47,699 nt of DNA, taken from positions 1 to 47,699 of the forward strand of contig JAQBTR010000006.1 in assembly GCA_027624915.1 (NCBI GenBank), given 5' to 3'. This document shows positions 3,622 to 9,340 of this stretch, in pieces (position 1 is the first letter of the stretch; every line of letters begins with the position of its first letter). The translations under genes and the position numbers were made by a program. The notes under the pieces were generated by a model that had not been told where the DNA came from, ran no database searches, and was given only the letters and a program-made list of their open reading frames with translations. This stretch comes from a bacterium (GTDB taxonomy: Bacteria > Patescibacteriota > Minisyncoccia > Ryanbacterales > GWA2-47-10b).

Positions 3622-3656
3622 GAGCTGGCGGCCCATAAAAGAGTATCATCGGCTCA
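3622..3656 (-). pseudogene. Truncated duplicate of the 5S rRNA 3' end
   Basis: GAGCTGGCGG plus CCATAAAAGAGTATCATCGG and a few more bases repeat the 3' end of the real 5S gene (3799-3847) with an internal deletion of about 13 nt. On the minus strand the piece can fold as TGAGC...GCTCA and is followed by a long T-rich tract (3601-3615), so the relic may now serve as the transcription terminator of the rRNA unit. The duplication is seen directly; the terminator role is inferred. Confidence 0.75.
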
Positions 3657-3730: not shown

Positions 3731-3798
3731 TGATTTATGACTCTTCCTGCACTCACGAGACAGAATAAAATAAAATACCTGAGAAGTTTGAGAGCTAT

Positions 3799-3910
3799 GA
3801 GCTGGCGGCTACCTACTGTCCCCATAAAAGAGTATCATCGGCTCAACCACGTTTTACGACTCTGTTCGGAATGGAAAGAGGTAGTTCCGCGGCGATGACA
3901 CCACCAGCTC
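3799..3910 (-). rRNA. rrf: 5S ribosomal RNA
   Basis: The minus strand reads GAGCTGGTGGTGTCATCGCC, then CCATTCCGAACAGAG (the conserved loop of 5S), and ends ...TAGCCGCCAGCTC, with the terminal GAGCTGG/CCAGCTC helix closing the molecule; length about 112 nt. A longer flanking helix (AATACCTGAGAAG with CTTCTCAGGTATT, roughly 3770-3785 and 3932-3947) brackets the gene, as expected for RNase III release from a precursor. It is last in the 23S, unknown RNA, 5S order. Exact mature ends are uncertain by a few bases. Confidence 0.93.
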
Positions 3911-3952
3911 ATAAATCTCAATAAACCTTCTCAGGTATTTTATTTTTTATTT

Positions 3953-4567
3953 AAATTCGAAACTGAGAGGAGAAGCCAAGTACACTGACTTGGCAATAGA
4001 GAAAACGGTTCTGGGAACCCCAGCGAGAGACCACGTATGGTTCACTCAATCGCTGGGGCTCCCAGCCTGGGGTCGGACACCCCAAGTTGTTTACAAGTGC
4101 TTGAGGTGGCGAGGGCGCTTAGAATTACTTCCAGGTCTTTGCTCAGACGTAGCCACTTATACCGGTATCCAGCCGGCGGTACGTGGGTTCGAGCCACGCC
4201 CTATCGCTACTCGCTGCAAGCGCTCACTCTAGCTGGTTCCAGAGCCACCACCTCAAGATGGTCGGGGTACGGCGAAGCTATTCGCGTGTGGCAACACTGC
4301 CCATGGTCAGGTCGCTTGCGCAAGCCGACTCTTGGGGGATCACCATCAGGGCAAACGTAATGCGCTCCGCCATACCTCGTCTTGTACTGCTGGGGGTGGA
4401 GCCACACTCGACTCCTAAATGACCGAGTTCGTCCCGGTCCATGCCGAAAGATGTGCGGCGGGTGATACGTTTTATACGTGATCGACCCATGCTAAATCCA
4501 CCTCCGCTGGAGGTGTCCTCGGCTGGCAAGCATTCATGCCCCCATGTCTTCTCCTCTCAATTTCGAA
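3953..4567 (-). ncRNA. Unknown structured RNA of about 615 nt between 23S and 5S
   Basis: A GC-rich block stands out from the AT-rich spacers on each side. It is closed by its own inverted repeat: TTCGAAACTGAGAGGAGAAG (3956-3975) pairs with CTTCTCCTCTCAATTTCGAA (4548-4567). Inside are many stable helices: GCCAAGT/ACTTGGC (3975-3994), a long hairpin with arms CTGGGAACCCCAGCGA and TCGCTGGGGCTCCCAG (4011-4065), CCTGGGGTC/GACACCCCAAG (4066-4086), GACCGAGTTC/GTCCCGGTCC (about 4421-4440) and CACCTCC/GGAGGTG (4499-4515). No frame encodes a recognisable protein. I compared it by eye with RNase P RNA, tmRNA, SRP RNA, 16S and group II introns and found none of their hallmark sequences. Its position and flanking helix imply that it is processed from the rRNA precursor. 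Identity unknown. Confidence 0.7.
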
Positions 4568-4720
4568 GAACTGTTCTTAAATTATATATACATTGTGTAC
4601 ATTTTCTAATGGAAAACTCGGACTATTAGTACTCCCCAGCTGAACGCATTGCTGCGCTTACACGTAGAGCCTATCAACCTAGTAGTCTCCTAGGGTCCTC
4701 AAACGATTCCTTATCTTAGG

Positions 4721-4898: not shown

Positions 4899-5243
4899 CT
4901 TCTCTTCACGAATTACGTCGTGGAATGGACTATATCTTCCCGATCATTACACACGTAATGATTTAGGGGTTAACGTGTAGTCTCTACGGGTGCTCAAGTG
5001 AGCTTCCCTCGGTATCGCCCTCAAGTAATTACTTGGTCGGGTTTCACCGATATCAGTTAACTTTTTCTTCCCGACCCTATGCAATAAGATCGGGAGACCG
5101 CCGTGATATTTGTTTTGGTTGGTTTTCTATCAACTTGATTTGTTTTAAACGAAAAGACATATATTGATGTCATTGGTGGTTGTATGTAAACAACCATTGG
5201 GATTCAGAATGGTTCAGGTGCCGACAGTTGCATCAGCAACTGA
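4899..5243 (-). other. Group I intron 2 in 23S rRNA (near E. coli position 2593), no ORF
   Basis: The 5' exon ends ...GGTTCAGACCGT and the 3' exon starts CGTGAGACAGG; joining them restores the conserved 23S sequence after helix 92. The exon ends in T and the 345-nt intron ends in G (4899), as required for group I splicing. P7-like AAGATATAGTCC and its partner GTAGAGACTAC lie in the 3' half, with several stable hairpins in the 5' half. Counting from the A2602 equivalent puts the site at about U2593, where a Chlamydomonas chloroplast group I intron is known. No endonuclease is encoded, so it must be inherited or mobilised in trans. Confidence 0.85.
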
Positions 5244-5577: not shown

Positions 5578-6535
5578 CATTTTGTTAATCTATTCTAAAA
5601 CTTATATTGCATTGTTTTGTGAACATATGGCTCTATAAGCTTTCTAAATTCATGTGCAGACTCACTATATATGTAAATCCGAAATGAATTGTTGCGTTGC
5701 TTGTGTAACCCTGCTTTTATCTTAAATTTATCATCTAAGACACCTGTCAGAATTTGTAATTCTTTCTTTGTATATCCAAGAGAATGAATAACGTATGATT
5801 TATGTTTTGATGACTTTTTTGATCCATCATCCATAAACCATATTGCAAGAGCTAAAGGATCAAGAAACTTATGTATAAGGCGAGGAATAACTTTTTTTCC
5901 ATCCTTATAGAATTGTTGTCTATAGAATCTAAGCTTTCCGCTTGTATACGTTGTAAAACCGTACGCGATAAGTTTTTTTCCTAAGGACGTTCTTATTCGT
6001 TTTTTTGGTGGTGAATGCGTCCAATTCTTGAGTTCGCGCCACAACCAATCTACGTAATCCTTCTGCTTGATAGAGTGTTCGACCTTGAGTCTAAAAACCC
6101 TATCGTTCACTGATTCCATATGTCCATCACCTAACAACAGGCCAATAATAATTGATTGTTGTCGTGGTGTAAGACTAAGCGTCTTTTTTAACTCATGTAT
6201 TTCTTTTGTATTCATATAGATTTGCTCACTACTTATGAGCACTCTTTGTCGCCAAAGAGAGCAGACTATCTCATTCAAGTATCTTCGAAATATATTTATT
6301 TGGGCGAAATATATTTCTGTTATAAGCTCATACCTGATTCAGCGTATAGTCGTTGAGGGCTCGCTTCGTTTTACACGAAGATTGCCTGCTGATTGTCCGT
6401 CGATTTCGACACATTGTCGAAATACCACTCTGTGATTTTTACGGTACAAAATACTCGTACACATGAGATACACGGATGTTCCAGCATATAGCTGAATTTT
6501 ACTAACCCCCACAATGTAACGGCATTGTGTTGTTA
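5578..6535 (-). other. Group I intron 1 in 23S rRNA (near E. coli position 2262), encodes a LAGLIDADG endonuclease
   Basis: The exon sequence GGGGCGCTATCCT joins CCTAAAAAGTAACGGAGGAG, which rebuilds the helix CTCCTCC/GGAGGAG beside the P loop. The 5' exon ends in T and the intron ends in G at 5578, both diagnostic. Core elements in order on the minus strand: CAGCAGGCAATC (P/Q region, about 6390), CAACGACTATAC (R/P7 5' side, about 6350) and GAGATAGTCT (P7 3' side, about 6268). The endonuclease ORF lies 3' of P7. Splice sites were deduced by comparison with E. coli and could shift by a base. Confidence 0.87.
5595..6215 (-). CDS. LAGLIDADG homing endonuclease in the 23S group I intron
   Basis: About 206 aa with two LAGLIDADG motifs in one chain: IIIGLLLGDGH near residue 24 and LALAIWFMDDGSK near residue 123; the acidic residues D in GDG and DD in MDDG coordinate the catalytic metals. 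The enzyme should cut intronless 23S genes at the insertion site and promote intron homing; many members also help splicing as maturases. I prefer the ATG at 6215 because the in-frame ATG at 6278 lies inside the P7 strand of the ribozyme core. The ORF stops 17 nt before the 3' splice site. It is AT-rich compared with the surrounding rRNA, consistent with a mobile intron. Confidence 0.88.
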   Translation of the reverse strand: MNTKEIHELKKTLSLTPRQQSIIIGLLLGDGHMESVNDRVFRLKVEHSIKQKDYVDWLWRELKNWTHSPPKKRIRTSLGKKLIAYGFTTYTSGKLRFYRQQFYKDGKKVIPRLIHKFLDPLALAIWFMDDGSKKSSKHKSYVIHSLGYTKKELQILTGVLDDKFKIKAGLHKQRNNSFRIYIYSESAHEFRKLIEPYVHKTMQYKF

Positions 6536-7705
6536 AGGATAGCGCCCCACTAAAACTGCCCACCAGCCACTGTCCCTCTAGAGTTTTGCTCTAGGGGTTA
6601 GAACTTAATTTTTTAGAGATGAGTATTTCACTGACGACTCCATGTCCCCCAAAAGGGACACTTCAAAGTCTCCTCACTATTCTACGCAATAAAAACCTAA
6701 GCCCAATGACAAGCTGCAGTAAAGCTTCCGGGGTCTTTTCGTCTAGCTGCAGTTAACCGGCATCTTCACCGGTATCGCATTTTCACCAGGTACCTCCTCG
6801 AGACAGTTTTCCAGTCGTTACTCCTTTCGTGCGCGTCGGAACTTACCCGACAAGGAATTGCGCTACCTTAGGACGATTATAGTTATCGCCGACATTGACG
6901 AGGGCTTATACCGTGCAGCAGAAAGACCGAAGTCCAACCACCAACAGTATTTAACCTTCTCGCATTGGTCAGGAGTCACCCTCTATACATCCTCTTACGA
7001 GTTCGCAGAGAGCTGTGTTTTTGATAAACAGTCGCCAGAAATACTTTCGCTGCGGCCCCCACACCATTGCTGGGAGGGGCAGGCCTTATCCCGAAGTTAC
7101 GGCCGCTTTTTTGCCGAGTTCCTTAAGGAGGTCTCACCTGTTCGCCTTGGTCTTCTCGACCCGAGCACCTGTGTCGGTTTGCGGTACGGTTCGATCATAC
7201 ATATTCTTAGAAGTTTTTCTTGGAAGGCTGCTTTGTAGAATTTCTCAACCCGAGGGAAGAAATTTTCACGACGCTTGGAGTTTGTCATCTAAGACAGGGC
7301 CCGGATTTGCCTGGGCACCCTCCTTACGCAATGAACGTAAATCCAATAATACGCTCCACATACTAGCCTCCGTCCCTCCATCGATCTATGACCGAGTTAC
7401 GGAATATTAACCGTATGTCCATCGATTTCAGCTTTCGCCATTACCTTAGGACCGACTAACCCTTGGATGATCACCATTGCCAAGGAAACCTTGCTCTTTC
7501 GGCGTACGGGGCTCTCACCCGTATTGCGGTTACTTGTGCCAACATTCTCTCTTCCATGCGCTCCACCAGCCCTCACGGGTCCGGCTTCACAGCAGATGGA
7601 ATGCTCTCCTACCATATGTAGGCTTCATTGAATAGTCGAGCGAGCTCGCTCGACATTAGGGGTCGTGAGTGAGGAATTCCTCACCCAACTTTTGAAAGTT
7701 TATAA

Positions 7706-7798
7706 AAGCGGAGGCTGGACTTGAACCAGCGACCTTCTGCTTGCCCCCGTAATTCTCTTGGGATTAAGCAGATGCTCTACCAGCTGAGCTACTCCGCC
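7706..7798 (-). tRNA. tRNA-like gene with a 20-nt insertion in the anticodon loop
   Basis: Acceptor GGCGGAG/CTCCGC(T), D arm GCTC-AGCTGGTA-GAGC, anticodon stem TCTGC/GCAGA, variable AGGTC and T arm GCTGG-TTCAAGT-CCAGC all have canonical lengths; position 73 is T. The anticodon loop, normally 7 nt, has 27 nt. If 20 nt after T33 were removed, the loop would read TTGGCAA, anticodon GGC (Ala), but the acceptor lacks the G3-U70 pair of alanine tRNAs, and T73 is typical of glycine tRNAs. Inverted GAAAGTTT/AAACTTTC repeats flank it. Without splicing it should not decode. It may be a processing tag or a relic. No CCA is encoded. Confidence 0.6.
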
Positions 7799-7818
7799 CA
7801 AACTTTCTACTCTCTTCA

Positions 7819-7892
7819 TGGAGCCGGGAGCGATCGAATCTCCGACCTCCCTGCGTGGAACGCAGGGGCTCTACCATCTGAGCTACGGCCCC
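7819..7892 (-). tRNA. tRNA-like gene: alanine-type acceptor with anticodon TCC
   Basis: Acceptor GGGGCCG/CGGCTCC contains G3-U70 and A73, the alanyl-tRNA synthetase identity set. The D arm GCTC-AGATGGTA-GAGC and anticodon stem CCTGC/GCAGG are regular and closely resemble tRNA-Ala, but the loop GTTCCAC places TCC (glycine) at 34-36. The T arm GGAGA-TTCGATC-GCTCC has an A-G mismatch where the conserved G53-C61 pair should be, and the variable region is one base longer than usual. It is therefore either a degenerate tRNA-Ala relic or a tRNA that could put alanine at GGA codons. It lies inside 23S and could supply an RNase P site. Confidence 0.6.
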
Positions 7893-8649
7893 ATAAAACC
7901 TCTGAACTATTCAATGAAACCTACATATCCACACCTTCGGTACTTCGTTTAAGCCCCGATTATTTTCGGCGCGAAGTCTTTTGACGAGTAAGCTGTTACG
8001 CACTTTTTAAAGGATGGCTGCTTCTAAGCCAACCTCCTCGCTGTCTGTAAAACTTCACCTCCTTCTTTGCACTGAACGAAGATTTTGGGACCTTAGATTG
8101 TGATTTGGGCTGTTTCCCTTTTGACCGACGGAGCTTAGCCCCCGTGGTCTGACTAGATATTCTTTAACACCTGCCATTCGGAGTTTGATAGGGGTGTCGA
8201 GATTTCTCCCTGTACAACCCTTCCAGTGCTCTACCTGCAGGTTTGCAATATCCGCTAGCCCTAAAGCTATTTCGGAGAGAACCAGCTATTACTGAGTTCG
8301 ATTAGCTTTTCACTCCTTACCACAAGTCATCCGAACGTTTTGCACGGCGTATCGGTTCGGGCCTCCCTTCGACTTTCGTCGAAGTTCACCCTGCTCATGG
8401 CAAGCTCACCCAGCTTCGGGTCTATTGCAGACTACGTTCAACCATAAAGATTGATAAACGCCCTATTCAGACTCGCTTTCGCTACACCTCCGTTCCCTGA
8501 GGGAACTTAGATTACGTAATGTACAATAACTCGTTGGCTCATGCTTCAATAGGCACACCGTCACCCACACTCAATCCGAAGATCGAGGGGGCTCCGATTC
8601 TTTGTAAGCTTATGGTTTCAGAGACTATTTCATCGCCCTCTACGGGCTG

Positions 8650-8688
<39 letters not shown>

Positions 8689-9340
8689 TTTCAAAAGTAT
8701 TTAGCCTTAGCCGTATAGTTCGGCTGGATTCCTCCTACCTTATCGTGTGTAGAAGTACTCAAGAAACCATCAATGAGAACGTTACTTTTTCGCATACAGG
8801 ACTATCACCTTCTTTGGTCGGGCTTTCCAGCCGCGTTCCGCTAAAGTATCGTTTTTATAACTCACATTATCCGAAGATAATAAGATGGCTCTTACAACCC
8901 CACCCTATGAACATTTTGACGAATCAAACTGTTCAAGTTGGATGGTTTGGGCTGTTCCCTTTTCGCTCGCCGCTACTCGGGGAATATGAAATACGTTCAT
9001 CACCAACATCGATGGAACGACGCGGGTGATAAAAGTATTTCGTTTTTTTCTTTTCCTCCAGGTACTGAGATGTTTCACTTCCCTGGGTACGCTACTGGCA
9101 CATTGCTATGTCAGCTGATGCAATTATTCATCGCAACGGGTTTCCCCATTCGGATATCGTCGGATCATAGGTTGCTCGGCACCTACCCGACGCTTAATGC
9201 AGCCAAGCCACATCCTTCATCGCCTTTTGAAACCTAGGCATCCACCATAAGCTCTTAATTGTTTTCCATTAGAAAATGCACACTGCATCTGAAAAAACCT
9301 AAATATATTGGGATATATTTTGGGATTGTTACAAACTCGC

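Follow-up and report, generated by a model that had tools for sequence, protein, structure and literature searches.

The rRNA genes of CPR bacteria are rich in introns and IVSs. In Coxiella, RNase III cuts within the 28-bp stem that encloses the IVS, and rapid degradation of the IVS RNA follows (PMC4990558); RNase III has been retained by CPR bacteria (PMC12641178). A survey of CPR rRNA insertions covered the 16S, 23S, and 5S genes and left the word spacer unused (PMC11270868), and no description of a 23S-5S spacer module such as the one analyzed here was found in the literature searched, a search whose scope left out most subscription journals and preprints.

The locus lies in a window of 47,699 nt, the whole stretch of DNA analyzed, which corresponds to contig 8 of an 839-kb genome (G000) whose nearest relatives in the genome collection are Candidatus Ryanbacteria MAGs. 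On the minus strand of the window, the 23S rRNA gene (9268-4608; RF02541, model positions 1-2925), containing an IVS and introns, is followed by the 5S rRNA gene (3908-3800; RF00001), and both are flanked by stems: sequence and duplex prediction give a processing stem of ~23 bp around the 23S (3' arm 4595-4617, 5' arm 9261-9283), and the 5S sits inside its own two-part stem, formed by the inverted repeats at 3767-3808 and 3901-3946. The 23S aligned to positions 5 to 2884 (of 2904) of the E. coli 23S, and since the alignment reaches position 2884, the gene is essentially complete at its 3' end, which puts the block at 4567-3956 in the spacer. This 23S-5S spacer is 699 nt long, compared with 28 to 197 nt (median of 75 nt) at 27 other Paceibacteria loci. 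Downstream, 25 nt from the 3' half of the 5S recur exactly at 3632-3656, followed on the minus strand by a T-rich run; they represent a truncated 5S duplicate, located ~190 bases downstream of the corresponding 5S segment. Upstream of the 23S, 38 kb (window positions 9268-47699) contain no match to 16S, and the 16S and 23S are apparently unlinked.

The 23S gene itself carries inserts, all on the minus strand. The insert at 7613-7929, located at the IVS site of helix 45 (E. coli 1163/1186), is enclosed by a stem of ~23 to 24 bp and holds a tRNA-Gly(UCC) (7893-7818) together with a second tRNA (7799-7705) that has ~20 extra nt in its anticodon loop. BLAST found no close second copy in the genome, and the presence of tRNA genes within a 23S IVS looks unusual. 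A group I intron (5578-6535; 65.5 bits) at E. coli position 2262/2263 carries a LAGLIDADG_2 endonuclease ORF (5595-6278), and a degenerate group I intron (4899-5243), scoring 40.9 bits and thus below the cutoff, lies at position 2593.

Within the spacer, an element of 612 nt (3956-4567, minus strand) is bounded by an inverted repeat at 3956-3978 and 4545-4567, of 23 nt and 91% complementary. The initial annotation had described a GC-rich, hairpin-dense block at 3953-4567 with its own flanking inverted repeat of about 20 bp, like those around the 23S and the 5S, and this description holds, with the ends of the stem now placed at 3956 and 4567. The GC content of the block is 56.5%, compared with 20.9% in the immediate flanks and 41.7% in the window, and the block folds at -282 kcal/mol, with z scores of -7.6 to -8.2 relative to dinucleotide shuffles. 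When the closing stem is left out, the interior still yields a z score of -5.9 for the transcribed strand, compared with -2.4 for the opposite strand. The fold of the transcribed strand is clearly better in G000 and in one of its relatives (G002), while the strand bias is weak in another (G001).

A BLAST search with the block matched only its two ends in G002, and the 23S-5S spacers of the family were then examined, revealing homologues at the same place in two further genera of the same Ryanbacteria family, represented by G001 and G002. The spacers measure 467 nt in G002 and 436 nt, including 24 N, in G001 (contig MHOB01000006), and the homologues themselves are ~400 and at least 310 nt long, compared with 612 nt in G000; both carry TTCGAAMTTGAGAGGARRA on their 5' side and a nearly complementary sequence on their 3' side, as in G000. 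The block is absent from the ~75-nt spacers of G003 and G004, which belong to the same genus as G002, and the sequence pattern of the closing helix, P1, is found nowhere else in these two genomes (completeness of 91% and 85%). The insert at E. coli position 2593 of the 23S is likewise missing from G003 and G004 and present in all three carriers of the element, being larger in G001 and G002 than in G000. Since two relatives of the same genus do without it, the element is a real but dispensable RNA. The 23S sequences of G003 and G004 are 96 to 98% identical to that of the carrier G002, and those of the three carrier genera are 86 to 91% identical to each other; because these identities, which are not a tree, place G000 and G001 outside the group formed by G002, G003, and G004, presence in the ancestor of the family followed by loss in G003 and G004 would be the simplest history, with independent gains as the alternative.

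When the three carrier sequences were folded separately, one plan emerged, in which P1 encloses all other domains and P2/P3, a middle domain, P5/P6, and P9 follow in the same order (all coordinates below refer to the minus strand). P1 is formed by the 5' arm TTCGAAATTGAGAGGAGAA (4549-4567) and the 3' arm TTCTCCTCTCAGTTTCGAA (3956-3974), as supported by the pattern search, the comparison of pairing, and the inverted repeat; 16 of the 19 positions of the 5' arm are identical across the three genera, and three two-sided changes separate the helix of G000 from that of G001. Domain A (4391-4544) is multi-branched and closed by helix P2 (4544-4539 with 4396-4391), which pairs in every carrier, as UGGGGG/CCCCCA in G000 and G001 and as UGGGGC/GUCCCA in G002; the P3 hairpin (4398-4415), which adjoins the 3' strand of P2, is also present in all three, with two-sided changes. 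Domain B (4266-4376) is predicted to fold into a long hairpin, whose counterpart in G002 is shorter. Domain C (4100-4257) comprises helix P5 (4257-4246 with 4111-4100) and hairpin P6 (4245-4226) and contains a 49-nt stretch that can be aligned between G000 and G002 (73% identity); 7 of the 17 domain C pairs are variable, and none is broken. The fold of G000 alone then contains two extra hairpins (4011-4086), at a place where G001 and G002 have a short, mostly unpaired stretch. Finally, the P9 hairpin (3975-3994) directly abuts the 3' arm of P1 and has at least 7 bp in each of the three carriers, although the letters differ at 4 to 7 of 7 pairs among them.

The order of the domains is common to three genera, with a largely diverged inner sequence; alignment over the whole length with MAFFT misaligns the interior of the element. 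P3, P5, P6, and P9 vary without any broken pair, and two-sided changes occur in six helices (P1, P2, P3, P5, P6, and P9), a count that comes from three sequences only, one of them with the 24-N gap, and that is biased toward pairing because the helices were picked from folds. The placement of P9 is less biased than the pair counts: among dinucleotide shuffles of each interior, 0.7 to 0.8% have a hairpin of 7 bp or more that stops precisely at P1, compared with 3/3 of the real sequences, for a joint chance of ~4e-7 if the three are independent.

No large RNA had been recognized in the block by the initial annotation, and searches against Rfam 15 agree with this: cmscan returned nothing at the gathering cutoffs and, at an E value of ≤10, only a chance-level match to Bcj11 (15.5 bits; E value of 6.3), with similar results for the homologues. 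A divergent form of a known large RNA had also been suggested, and this is not supported, since OLE, ROOL, and GOLLD gave no match in the block at an E value of ≤10 and RNase P RNA, also unmatched there, has its own gene elsewhere (G000:C24:13503-14037; 140.8 bits). What stands of the overall reading is an unrecognized structured, stem-bounded RNA, and the collection of homologues from relatives, proposed as a check, produced two between 23S and 5S in which the helices remain paired through changes in sequence. Other candidates fared no better. The block did not match tmRNA, whose gene lies at G000:C13:87617-87959 (98.3 bits) and is located elsewhere in 5/5 family genomes. SRP RNA was matched neither in the block nor anywhere in the family, including the genomes lacking the element, and since none scored above the cutoff in 36 relatives either, its absence is uninformative about the block, which could still be a strongly divergent SRP RNA. 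More generally, SRP RNA (RF00169) was not detected above the Rfam cutoff in the 36 Paceibacteria genomes G000 to G035, while most control genomes gave a match; the SRP RNA of Paceibacteria is either very divergent or missing. A tRNA-like nature of P2/P3 was rejected, as a canonical T-loop (TTCAACT) stands beside P2 in G002 but not in G000 and G001, and ARAGORN found no tRNA gene in the element, the match to tRNA-Sec being at chance level (E value of 2.6). Three ORFs of the block lack a Pfam match at an E value of ≤1, and no long frame is present in all carriers. The block was unmatched in phage and plasmid records, as was the P1 pattern in IMG/VR.

Taken together, the element is probably a vertically inherited, IVS-like spacer RNA module of one Ryanbacteria family that is released by RNase III. 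The proposed course of events is as follows: (i) the element would be transcribed together with the 23S and 5S; (ii) P1, a helix of 19 to 20 bp, would fold it as a unit separate from pre-23S and pre-5S; (iii) as a candidate site for RNase III cleavage, P1 would allow the element to leave the precursor as one compact piece; and (iv) selection would keep P1 and the overall fold (P2/P3, P5/P6, and P9). We infer insulation by P1 and removal by RNase III from the build of the Coxiella IVS and from the occurrence of RNase III in CPR bacteria, its gene being present in 5/5 genomes of the family. The most likely purpose of such an arrangement would be to keep a long insert from disturbing the folding and processing of rRNA. 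The sequence conservation of P1, the number of sequences, which is only three, and the weak strand bias in G001 count against this explanation.

The conservation of P1 bears most directly on a different possibility, namely, that the element is a stable noncoding RNA of a new class, excised from the rRNA transcript by RNase III, present in rRNA-like amounts, and active in trans or in the assembly of ribosomes, with P1 serving as a protein-binding site. Within a spacer that is otherwise unalignable, the 5' arm of P1 is conserved to an extent comparable to that of the 23S, which exceeds what RNase III alone should need and, judged from the sequences, is a hint that a specific partner binds P1 and hence that the element has a function; the retention of domain order in three genera while the inner sequence diverged and the strand bias of the fold energy point in the same direction. 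On the other hand, two species of the same genus live without the element, its size drifts from ~310 to 612 nt, and it has been recognized in one family only. We regard a functional RNA of this kind as unlikely, and it is mainly the conservation of P1 beyond the needs of pairing that keeps its probability from falling lower; a tolerated, processed insert is the more likely alternative to an RNA acting in trans.

The same ends of the element could instead be read as the termini of a MITE-like DNA mobile element inserted in the rRNA spacer, in which case the TTTCGAAA found at either end would represent a duplicated target, matched by the single TTTTGAAA at the empty site of G003 and G004. The terminal inverted repeat and the clean presence or absence within one genus, where the empty spacers keep a single TTTYGAAA-like core, fit such an origin. 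However, TTTCGAAA is palindromic and therefore, as part of the stem, recurs as a direct repeat, so that a clean deletion is explained as well. Further arguments against mobility come from the P1 pattern, which occurs at one place in each carrier genome, always in the 23S-5S spacer, and nowhere else in the family, and from inner helices that stay paired as their sequence changes. When the search was extended to 384 Paceibacteria genomes with up to 2 mismatches, 43 of them matched, mostly through single arms, and since a reversed control pattern was likewise scattered over many of the genomes, these matches look like chance; none of those whose surroundings were examined lay in a 23S-5S spacer, and no further carrier was recognized, although carriers with another P1 would escape such a search. 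A mobile element is thus improbable. Least likely is a degenerate group I or group II intron, or other ribozyme, in the spacer, for despite the two group I introns in the same 23S and the joint absence of the element and the 2593 intron from G003 and G004, no Rfam intron model, including those of the catalytic cores, matched any of the three carriers at an E value of ≤10, while the degenerate 2593 intron still reaches 40.9 bits, and an architecture of one closing stem plus side domains does not correspond to a group I core.

With up to 612 nt of structured RNA, shared across genera and missing in a sister group, this spacer module indicates that streamlined genomes also carry sizeable RNA inserts in rRNA spacers; were the excised RNA stable, few RNAs of the cell would be more abundant. 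Plastid 4.5S rRNA is similarly an extra RNA between 23S and 5S, but it is the detached 3' end of the 23S, whereas the 23S of G000 reaches E. coli position 2884/2904 before the block begins. Like the stems at which RNase III processes the pre-23S and 5S precursors, the element has a double-stranded stem in the 23S-5S region, and in Helicobacter pylori such processing stems include an atypical structure upstream of the 5S (PMC8708148); in contrast to them, the stem of the element surrounds no mature rRNA but a separately folded domain, ~570 nt in length. In length and dense structure, it resembles OLE, ROOL, GOLLD, and similar RNAs, from which it differs by its location in an rRNA spacer and the lack of an Rfam match. 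The closest likeness is to the 23S IVSs of Salmonella, Coxiella, and Leptospira and of the CPR sites 23IS2 and 23IS4, which are also inserts of a few hundred nt in the rRNA transcript with a long inverted-repeat stem, predicted to be RNase III substrates and sporadic among close relatives. On a strict definition, which requires a position inside the 23S gene, the element does not count as an IVS, since the gene can be aligned to E. coli position 2884 and Rfam position 2925 before the block; the element resides in the 23S-5S spacer and fragments no rRNA, it does not contain the gene for the S23 protein (an optional IVS feature), and its inner helices are conserved across genera.
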